Below, piece after piece: positions 5,664 to 35,091 of a stretch of DNA of 64,000 nt; position 1 is the stretch's first letter, and the number at the start of each line of letters is the position of its first letter. The notes below the pieces were generated by a model. That model saw only the letters and a list, made by a program, of their open reading frames with translations, did no database searches and was not told where the DNA came from. This stretch comes from Ilyonectria destructans (lineage: Eukaryota > Ascomycota > Sordariomycetes > Hypocreales > Nectriaceae), in contig JAHEWK010000007.1 in NCBI GenBank assembly GCA_020740775.1, positions 2,046,001 to 2,110,000 on the forward strand, written 5' to 3'. A program made the translations under genes and the position numbers.

Positions 5664-7542
5664 TTACAGAAATCCTTGGAAGGCCTCACTCACTCCGTGC
5701 ACGTCTTCATATACATGCCAATGCCCACAGCCCTTTAGCACCACAAGCTGACAATCCTCGATTTCTGTCGAATACTTCTCACACAACGTTGGCGGAGACA
5801 CCTTATCCTCGTCACCGGTGATGATCAACGTTTTCGCGGCAATTGATCGGACGTCGAGAGTCTGCGTTGCTCGAGCGAGCGCCCAGCAAGCCTTCGCGTA
5901 TGACTCTGGATCCTGCCCCAGAAGACTCAATCTGACGGCTGTAACTGCGACTGGATTTACCTCCTTCGATTGATTGGAGGTCCCTGCCTCGACAACAGCG
6001 TCAACAACGGCCCTCATGCCTTTGCTTCTCACGAGGGCCGCTCGAGCATACGTTCCGCTCACAGCAGCTTCAGGGAGTGGAGAGGGTGGTGGTCCGAGCA
6101 AGATTATTTTCTTCACGAGCGCTGGGTTGTCAAGTGTGAACTTGATGGCTGCTAAGCACCCCAATGAATGGGCGATAAGTGTGCCTGGGTTTGATGGAGA
6201 CACCTTGGCAGCATCAAACACAGACATAATGTCAGAGGCGAAGGACTCGATGGTCAAGTCGCTGAGTGGGTGAGTTGGGCTCAGACCATGGCCTTCGAGG
6301 TCAAAAAGATGAAGCGAATGGGACTCAGAGTTGGTCAAGGATAGGGTTGAGACGAGAGGAGTCCAGTAGTCCTGCGTCCCGCCGAGGCCATGAACGAAAA
6401 CAAGATGCTCGTTTCCTGATCCAATCTTCTGATAATTGAGCAGCTTGCCATTGAGACGAGTGAGTCCAGTCTCTGAACCAAGGGACTTGGCAGAGTTGGT
6501 CAGTGTAAATGCAGAGCTAGACGTGAGTGGACTCGTGTAGTCCGTGGTGGGCATGGCGATTTTGTTCCGAAGCGTACCGAGCCCAGTGATGGAAACCGCA
6601 ATTTCATCTCCAGGTGCAAGAAATACTGGAGGCTTCTTTCCGATACCGACACCAGCAGGCTAACTAAGGTGTTAGCATTTGGACTGATAATATGGGGAAC
6701 CGTCTCGTATACTCACTGTTCCAGTAGCAATTACATCGCCCGGTTGCAGGGTTTGTCCTTCAGATATCGTCTTTACGAGGGTCGGAATAGAAAAGATGAG
6801 ATCTTCGCTAGTAGCACTCTGCTTAAGCGCCCCGTTGACATACGTCTCAAGTTTGAGAGTGGATGGCAACTGCTCTTTCGGAACAGCAATGGGGCCCTAT
6901 GAGTCGTAAGATTAAGAACCGCTGACCTAGGTTGAGGTAACTTACAATAGGACAGAAGGTATCAGGGGATTTGCCGATGAAGAATTGCTTATGATCTCTC
7001 TGACGTTCTCGTGCTGTCATATCATTGATGATAGTATAGCCCCAAACGTGCTCCCAGGCGTCGGCTTCATTTACACGGAAGCCAGGCTTGCCAATGATGA
7101 CGCCAATCTCTCCTTCATAGTCGGCGGTTTCAGTGAAGGATGGATGGGGGTAGATTTCTTCGCCATCGGCGATGATTGAGGTCGCTCTCTTGGTAAAGAT
7201 GACGGGGTGAGTCGGTCGGTCCATCTTATCGGAGCTATCATATCCAGAGCTGTTAAACTCCTTGGCATGCTCCATGTAATTTTTTCCTACTGCCATAACA
7301 TCACGGCCGGAGATGGGAGCCAAAAGCTTGACATCAGCGGCAGAAATGGGTGCCCCACTGGCAATGATCTTCGAAGGGCCCGATTCAATCACCTGGTACA
7401 GGTCCGAAATTGGCGTGCCAGAAGTGAAGGACAGAGGCTGAATAGTCTTGGCTGTGAAATCATAATGTCCAATACGAGGAACACCGGTATCGGGGGATAT
7501 GAATGCAGCATACTGCGTAAATTGAGGCTTGATAGAGCCCAT
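5664..7542 (-). CDS. Bifunctional FAA-hydrolase / alpha-beta-hydrolase fusion
   Basis: Three exons (6946-7542, 6717-6896, 5664-6659) with introns of 49 and 57 nt give 590 residues. Residues about 1-285 are a fumarylacetoacetate-hydrolase (FAH) family domain: AVGKNYMEHAKEF, the metal-binding DYEGEIGVIIGKPG, INDMTARERQ, then LQPGDVIATGTPAGVGIG. Residues about 300-590 are an alpha/beta hydrolase: FVHGLGG (oxyanion loop), nucleophile elbow AHSLG, acid TGDEDKVSP and His in GCGHWH. The link between the domains is spliced and in frame, so this is a true fusion. The FAH family cleaves or decarboxylates ring-fission products; the second domain could cleave an ester or lactone from the same path. Substrate unknown. 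The divergent neighbour is an organic-acid transporter, which fits a small catabolic unit. Confidence 0.88.
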
Positions 7543-34950: not shown

Positions 34951-34955
34951 AAAAA
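34951..34955 (-). terminator. RNA polymerase III terminator of the Phe-tRNA gene
   Basis: Run of five T on the minus strand (AAAAA on plus), 10 bases after the tRNA 3' end. T4-T6 runs at this distance end tRNA transcripts in fungi. Its presence supports a live Pol III unit. Confidence 0.6.
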
Positions 34956-34964
34956 GGTAGTCTT

Positions 34965-35091
34965 TGCGGTTTATGTGGATCGAACACATGACCTTCAGAT
35001 CTTCAGTCTGACGCTCTCTGTCAGTGAAGGTTAGTGATGTATCTCGGAGAGGGATTAATATGGTGACATACCCCAACTGAGCTAAACCCGC
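34965..35091 (-). tRNA. tRNA-Phe (GAA) interrupted in the D-loop by a 54-nt intron-like segment
   Basis: Read on the minus strand from 35091. With the segment 35018-35071 removed, a 73-nt cloverleaf forms: acceptor GCGGGTT/AAACCGC, D-arm GCTC-AGTTGGGA-GAGC, anticodon arm TCAGA-CTGAAGA-TCTGA (anticodon GAA), variable AGGTC, T-arm ATGTG-TTCGATC-CACAT, discriminator A. Box A (TAGCTCAGTTGG) and box B (GTTCGATCC) are both whole. The acceptor stem has one G5:A68 mismatch. The insert sits between GGG and AGAGC and has GTATGT at its 5' end, CACTAAC about 15 bases before its end and GACAG at its 3' end: the three marks of a fungal spliceosomal intron. There is no canonical 37/38 intron. Whether this gene makes a functional tRNA is open. 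Confidence 0.85.
35018..35071 (-). other. Spliceosomal-intron-like insertion inside tRNA-Phe
   Basis: 54 nt on the minus strand, GTATGT...CACTAAC...TGACAG, flanked by GTTGGG and AGAGCG of the D-arm. Exact removal restores the tRNA. Length and signals equal those of the protein-gene introns in this window (44-64 nt). No target-site duplication beyond a possible AG repeat at the 3' junction. Confidence 0.75.

Follow-up and report, generated by a model that had tools for sequence, protein, structure and literature searches.

Spliceosomal-type introns in tRNA genes of Ilyonectria destructans, including all initiator tRNA-Met genes found

Known introns in tRNA and other non-coding RNA genes

Introns of nuclear tRNA genes normally lie between positions 37 and 38 and are cut by the Sen endonuclease, and GT-AG introns are the task of the spliceosome. 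Genes for U6 snRNA with mRNA-type introns are known from Schizosaccharomyces pombe and other species. They resemble the genes described here in that an RNA polymerase III (Pol III) transcript carries a spliceosomal intron, and one U6 gene of the present genome is similar. In contrast to tRNAs, U6 is itself part of the spliceosome, and accidental reverse splicing into it is easy to picture; the present introns also differ in affecting five isotypes, in occupying six positions, and in occurring twice in some genes. Spliceosomal introns of fungal nuclear rDNA likewise place an mRNA-type intron in a non-coding RNA that is not made by Pol II, but there the transcript is an rRNA made by Pol I; a 1993 study on the 18S rDNA of deuteromycetes reportedly dealt with such mRNA-type introns. 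Fungal introners are, like the inserts studied here, short spliceosomal introns that have possibly spread to new sites; unlike introners, the insert from which we started had no matches outside tRNA-Phe loci.

Canonical 37/38 introns, handled by Sen and the Trl1 ligase, share with the present inserts their location in nuclear tRNA genes. This genome contains such ordinary introns as well, in seven tRNA-Pro(AGG) genes and in Arg, Val, and Leu genes (predicted by ARAGORN). In contrast, the inserts described here lie in the D arm, at 26/27, and at 46/47, measure 52–60 nt, carry spliceosomal signals, and failed a simple test for the BHB motif. According to a review, the ectopic introns of Cyanidioschyzon merolae and of nucleomorphs are closer in position, being found in D and T arms and more than once per gene, but those of Guillardia theta are 3–24 nt long and the C. 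merolae introns are linked to a BHB, whereas the present inserts have 52–60 nt and a GT..CTAAC..AG layout (PMC4090602). The same text names nucleomorphs and red algae as the bearers of true ectopic tRNA introns and relates that short D- and T-arm insertions in eukaryotic tRNA genes mostly affect a single gene among many synonymous ones and are read as pseudogenes; its main text never uses the word stem “spliceosom” (PMC4090602). tRNAscan-SE 2.0 is described as relying on BHB models to look for noncanonical introns, with archaeal candidates as the target (PMC8450103). The I. robusta CD-56 assembly (58.7 Mb) has 221 predicted tRNA genes (PMC6994667). We found no report of spliceosomal introns in tRNA genes in the available parts of the open-access literature.

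An interrupted tRNA-Phe gene and its paralogues

The window is the whole stretch of DNA that was analyzed, 64,000 nt of I. destructans (assembly GCA_020740775.1, contig JAHEWK010000007.1, positions 2,046,001 to 2,110,000, forward strand). As given, it yielded no tRNA with ARAGORN or with Rfam at the gathering threshold. An earlier note on this DNA had claimed that deletion of an insert at 35018–35071 restores a complete 73-nt tRNA-Phe(GAA), and had proposed comparing tRNA predictions with and without it. ARAGORN agreed: with the insert deleted it called tRNA-Phe(gaa), 73 nt, and with the insert kept it called no tRNA, even when introns of up to 100 nt were allowed. The features of the gene are given below; the two stretches named box A and box B core are those that we take to match the known promoter motifs.

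34965..35091, minus strand: interrupted tRNA-Phe(GAA) gene, unspliced length 127 nt
35072..35091, minus strand: tRNA exon 1, 20 nt, tRNA positions 1–20, GCGGGTTTAGCTCAGTTGGG
35073..35084, minus strand: presumed box A, positions 8–19, TAGCTCAGTTGG, intact and upstream of the intron, read from the sequence
35018..35071, minus strand: spliceosomal-type intron, 54 nt, at tRNA positions 20/21, a position shared with six other Phe genes
35066..35071, minus strand: 5′ splice site GTATGT
35030..35036, minus strand: branch-site-like CACTAAC, near the 3′ end of the intron
35018..35020, minus strand: 3′ splice site CAG
34965..35017, minus strand: tRNA exon 2, 53 nt, positions 21–73, anticodon GAA at 35004–35002
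34977..34985, minus strand: presumed box B core in the T arm, GTTCGATCC, read from the sequence
34951..34955, minus strand: T5 run, Pol III terminator-like

Read on the minus strand from 35071 to 35018, the insert runs GTATGT...CACTAAC...GACAG; these signals and the downstream T5 run are as previously described. The insert was also said to resemble the local protein-gene introns, and a small sample from the window, taken mostly by eye, has the same grammar (GTAAGT..CTGAC..CAG and GTGAGA..GCTAAC..TAG, with two further introns picked by a script that used the motif as a filter); CTAAC is not in all of them, as some have CTGAC or CTGAT in its place. A chance motif match was set aside as the source of the insert, since the full set of signals (GT..GT, [CT]TAAC at 5–14 nt before the segment end, and YAG) occurred in only 2 of 511,560 segments of 52–55 nt on the two strands of the window. 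One is the tRNA-Phe insert; the other, 6664–6716 on the minus strand, begins at what appears by eye to be the expected intron of a fumarylacetoacetase-like protein gene. The G5:A68 mismatch reported for the acceptor stem is real. When paired by hand, the Phe genes have one acceptor-stem mismatch, including an intronless paralogue with G5:G68, and because this paralogue is also mismatched, G5:A68 is no mark of decay.

One transcription factor encoded in the window shares 96% identity with a protein of I. robusta, which points to a closely related Nectriaceae fungus. We searched the genome (72 Mb, 74 contigs) with the window region, as had been suggested, and the nine DNA matches were exclusively tRNA-Phe loci. 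A Phe exon pattern allowing up to two mismatches returned eight perfect tRNA-Phe anticodon arms, together with four two-mismatch matches that were judged by eye not to be tRNAs. An insert of 54–55 nt at 20/21 is present in seven of the eight recognizable tRNA-Phe genes; the remaining gene (C12:2347 kb) lacks it and also lacks a 37/38 intron. Within its own genome, the comparison of all tRNA-Phe genes that the earlier note had called for upholds the insert and shows that it is no lone oddity. The suggestion of a recent introner found no support: near-identical copies did not turn up at unrelated sites, the inserts of the paralogues have diverged, and the window insert matched tRNA-Phe loci only, although it was the sole query and a missing match is no proof of rarity.

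In pairwise comparisons, the Phe inserts differ in 2 to 37 alignment columns and the exons in 0 to 2 of 73. The intron body of the C8 gene is almost unrelated to the others, but retains GTAAGT, CTAAC, and TAG where they are expected. Divergence on this scale among the Phe introns suggests an intron gain that is old relative to the gene duplications. At C3:970838–971437, three introned tRNA-Phe genes stand in tandem within 600 nt, and their introns are mutually diverged. In six of the seven genes, folding of the unspliced precursor predicts base pairs between the end of the intron and the anticodon arm (TGAAGG, GTCAG); this conserved tail reads CCTTCACTGAC at 35018–35036, with counterparts in five other Phe genes, and in two copies it reads CTGGC, where pairing is still possible through G-U. 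Such pairing may keep the precursor open. Beyond this genome, the introned tRNA-Phe pattern gave no matches in viral contigs or in genome contigs, collections in which no fungal relative was found; the bare anticodon-arm pattern matched 22 places in the genome contigs (by record title, 21 archaeal, one Flavobacteriales, and none fungal).

Inserts in four further isotypes and in a U6 gene

Patterns built on exons alone recovered 27 genes of five isotypes, of which 24 are interrupted, by 28 inserts in total; a truncated tRNA-Pro(CGG) remnant is excluded from these counts, and the number of isotypes is a lower bound, as introns elsewhere in tRNAs fall outside the patterns. Since all 24 introned genes are recovered without reference to the intron, the signals within these isotypes are no search artefact, although the choice of isotypes beyond Phe does depend on the search. 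The inserts lie at 20/21, 20a/21, 21/22, 24/25, 26/27, and 46/47 (numbered by hand).

A genome-wide pattern that combined box A with a 5′ splice site and CTAAC had 12 matches, comprising the seven Phe genes, three Cys genes with the insert at 24/25, and two non-tRNA sequences. With a Cys exon pattern we obtained five Cys genes, four of them with an intron, and also the intronless Phe gene at three mismatches; the fourth introned Cys gene has the branch motif TTAAC and was recovered without the use of intron signals. With the insert left in place, ARAGORN assigned three of these four Cys genes to Gly, Leu, or Asp. Two Cys genes (L061 and L094) have one acceptor-stem mismatch when paired by hand. 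The TGGC version of the genome pattern gave 50 matches (control, 29), with eight recognized tRNA genes, namely five initiator tRNA-Met and three tRNA-Asn; the TGGT version gave 83 (control, 31, with much of the excess due to one repeat array on C13) and two recognized genes, both tRNA-Pro(CGG). Ten pattern matches were rejected on reading their sequence, and ARAGORN found no tRNA in them (L057, L063, L105, L110, L118, L123, L126, L149, L150, and L151); the remaining TGGC and TGGT matches were classed by their matched text alone. The array on C13 (G000:C13:985411–989841) is a tandem series of ~72-nt units with GTAAGT-like and GCTAAC-like pieces, arranged on opposite strands in two blocks; it is apparently not tRNA and has the look of an intron-like minisatellite.

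Two independent initiator exon patterns each returned the same seven perfect initiator tRNA-Met genes. All seven carry an intron at 26/27 and four carry a second one at 46/47. No intronless initiator gene was seen among the perfect matches, the one-mismatch matches, and those two-mismatch matches whose sequence was read; the search misses genes with more than two mismatches to both patterns, and its controls gave 28 and 23 matches. Candidates with mismatches were rejected as follows: two one-mismatch matches to the first pattern (L137 and L138) contain no tRNA by ARAGORN, and nor do four of the 16 two-mismatch matches to the second (L140–L143, those covered by the ARAGORN check); two-mismatch matches to the first pattern numbered 21. 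L139 is a tRNA-Arg(CCT) according to ARAGORN. The mature initiator tRNAs are of two types, which differ at three T-stem sites. The first introns of three initiator genes (L107, L135, and L136) hold GTTCGAA-like, box-B-like sequences, as if part of a promoter had been imported.

The Asn exon pattern had five perfect matches, four with an intron and one (L065) without. One of the tRNA-Asn genes (L112, C2:1402568) combines a D-loop intron of spliceosomal type with an 11-nt insert at 37/38. Two tRNA-Pro(CGG) genes similarly have an insert at 21/22 and, by ARAGORN, a 27-nt intron at 37/38, so that three introned genes have an additional insert at the canonical site. A Pro 3′-end pattern matched ten places: the two Pro(CGG) genes, the remnant, and seven tRNA-Pro(AGG) genes with the classical intron only. 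Both intact Pro(CGG) genes thus carry the insert. The 5′-truncated remnant (L152, C23:2903960–2904170) consists of the 3′ half of a tRNA-Pro(CGG), with no 5′ half in the stretch read, and may illustrate how a dead copy looks in this genome.

One of three U6 snRNA genes above the family cut-off has a GT..CTAAC..AG insert and the other two have none.

G000:C1:6743874–6744043, minus strand: U6 gene with insert (L102), GTAAGC..TTTACTAACCCCTTCACAG at one clean site, after ACAGAGAAGAT

A second kind of Pol III gene therefore looks, from its sequence, to be spliced like these tRNAs. The U6 insert contains GGGTTCGAACCC, which is box-B-like; the U6 intron of S. pombe also holds a B box.

Conservation, transcription, and removal of the inserts

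The 28 inserts share a strict grammar and a narrow length range (52–60 nt). All begin with GTNNG (GTANG in 26) and all end with AG, which is preceded by a pyrimidine in 24 (22 CAG and two TAG). CTAAC lies within the last 25 nt of 22 inserts, and 27 have a branch-like motif at the usual distance (CTAAC in 22, CTAAT in two, CTGAC in two, and TTAAC in one). As counterpoints, four introns end with AAG, and the second intron of L108 has no branch motif at the usual distance. The inserts thus have the 5′ splice site, branch motif (27/28), and 3′ AG of U2-type introns, with grammar and size like those of the small sample of protein-gene introns from the window.

Exons and inserts have diverged to very different degrees. 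Mean pairwise differences in exons and first introns, respectively, are 0.008 and 0.315 for Phe, 0.100 and 0.454 for Cys, 0.000 and 0.416 for initiator Met (exons being the first 45 of 72 nt), and 0.000 and 0.358 for Asn (three of the four genes, the 37/38 insert of L112 being omitted; the exons of the remaining gene are identical). Exon divergence is small, highest in Cys at up to 16%, and insert divergence reaches 60%. This contrast indicates that the mature tRNA is under selection and the body of the insert much less so. Paired changes preserve stems at Phe 49:65, Cys 3:70, and initiator Met 50:64 (by hand); the A49/U65 variant of Phe is absent from the intronless gene. The single acceptor-stem mismatch of the Phe genes and of Cys L061 and L094 speaks against this. 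The insert-free forms were assigned to the right isotype by ARAGORN in 23 of the 23 genes run, with the Cys forms in that run being 2–3 nt short at the 3′ end and three of them also run at full length; the 24th gene, L144, has exons identical to those of L113.

These comparisons bear on the possibility, also raised in the earlier note, that an interrupted tRNA gene was duplicated into dead copies that are not expressed as tRNA. Such copies would accord with the single intronless gene each for Phe, Cys, and Asn, with the existence of the Pro(CGG) remnant, and with the usual reading of D- and T-arm insertions as pseudogenes (PMC4090602). However, the exons have stayed alike while the introns diverged, the stem changes compensate each other, and all seven initiator genes found are interrupted. 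We rejected dead copies on the strength of the exon/intron contrast and the interrupted initiator genes, and consider them to have next to no likelihood.

The surroundings of the inserts are in keeping with transcription by Pol III. Each of the 24 introned genes has a run of at least four T residues no more than about 30 nt downstream, the exons retain box A and box B (by eye), and the mature cloverleaf is intact. Upstream flanks are unlike between most loci, and CAA, a feature of Pol III starts, often stands shortly before the tRNA. A point against is that in the two-intron initiator genes, box A and box B are 140–146 nt apart (by hand), a wide spacing for TFIIIC. TTTT occurs in none of the 28 introns compared with about 0.145 of the 54-mers in the window; the corresponding probability (0.855^28 = 0.012) treats related introns as independent, which they are not, and we give this avoidance little weight. 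The absence of TTTT is among the observations that oppose removal of the introns by the spliceosome from Pol II read-through transcripts, with the tRNA excised from the longer RNA. This route has in its favor that spliceosomes normally act on Pol II transcripts, but the close T runs at every gene, the retained box A and B sequences, the frequent upstream CAA, and the absence of TTTT from the introns make it very improbable.

We also considered whether the tRNA splicing endonuclease (Sen complex) and a ligase handle the inserts as non-canonical introns, as in red algae and nucleomorphs. Ectopic D- and T-arm introns do exist in some algae, and the review adds that the eukaryotic enzyme can cut the archaeal-type BHB and that it works at 37/38 without a clear local motif (PMC4090602). 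This enzyme can also use a ruler mechanism at 37/38. The predicted pairing of the intron tail with the anticodon arm in six of seven Phe precursors would also fit. The motif, however, was lacking: in a test of simple pairing, which asked for two 3-nt bulges at the junctions flanking a central helix of 4 bp, none of the 28 introns formed the helix under any equivalent placement of the junctions, the best being three of four pairs in initiator introns, and a relaxed test of the seven Phe introns likewise reached at most three of four. Moreover, an endonuclease gives no reason for the conservation of GTANGT, CTAAC, and AG, and three of the genes have a separate insert at 37/38 as well. Removal by the endonuclease is accordingly very unlikely, to about the same degree as the Pol II route.

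The simplest reading by far is that the spliceosome acts on Pol III precursors, and the inserts are very probably real U2-type spliceosomal introns. The claim made for the window locus, that a Pol III tRNA gene contains an intron of spliceosomal type, is thereby strongly supported at the sequence level by the Phe paralogues and four further isotypes. What was observed directly is the anatomy of the genes, their recurrence, the conservation of signals and exons, the negative result of the simple endonuclease-motif test, and the lack of an intronless initiator gene among those found; on this basis we infer Pol III transcription, removal by the spliceosome, and the order of events. Transcription of the tRNA gene by Pol III would be directed by the internal boxes A and B and would end at the T run, and the 54-nt intron should prevent the D arm from forming in the precursor. 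The spliceosome would then recognize GTANGT at the 5′ splice site, CTAAC at the branch site, and the final AG, and would remove the intron, after which the joined RNA could fold as a standard tRNA and undergo end trimming. In the two tRNA-Pro(CGG) and the one tRNA-Asn, the Sen endonuclease would additionally remove the 37/38 intron.

The initiator tRNA has no substitute. Because it is irreplaceable and every gene found for it is interrupted, the introns amount to more than a sequence pattern, and since no intronless initiator gene was found, its splicing should be obligatory. In contrast, Phe, Cys, and Asn each have one intronless gene, and therefore splicing need not be essential for these isotypes. 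Taken together, it is likely that in this lineage the spliceosome matures a whole set of tRNAs, among them every initiator tRNA-Met (with two rounds per molecule for four of the seven initiator genes), that translation initiation depends directly on the spliceosome, that some precursors (Pro(CGG) and one Asn) need both splicing systems, and that the introns may contribute extra Pol III promoter parts, given the box-B-like sequences in several initiator introns and the U6 intron.

Spliceosomal introns and tRNA introns are each familiar, and as far as could be found, spliceosomal introns in a Pol III RNA were known for U6 and had not been reported for tRNAs. The division of labor between endonuclease and spliceosome appears to break down here in five or more isotypes, among them one that the cell cannot do without. 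If this is true, the spliceosome works routinely on very short Pol III precursors in which the first exon of the tRNA is 20–25 nt, and these genes provide naturally occurring material for work on how non-coding RNAs gain introns. It would also explain why automatic annotation can miss or mislabel such tRNA genes. For the organism itself, the genes suggest that the maturation of tRNA, and hence the start of all protein synthesis, may depend on the machine that splices mRNA.
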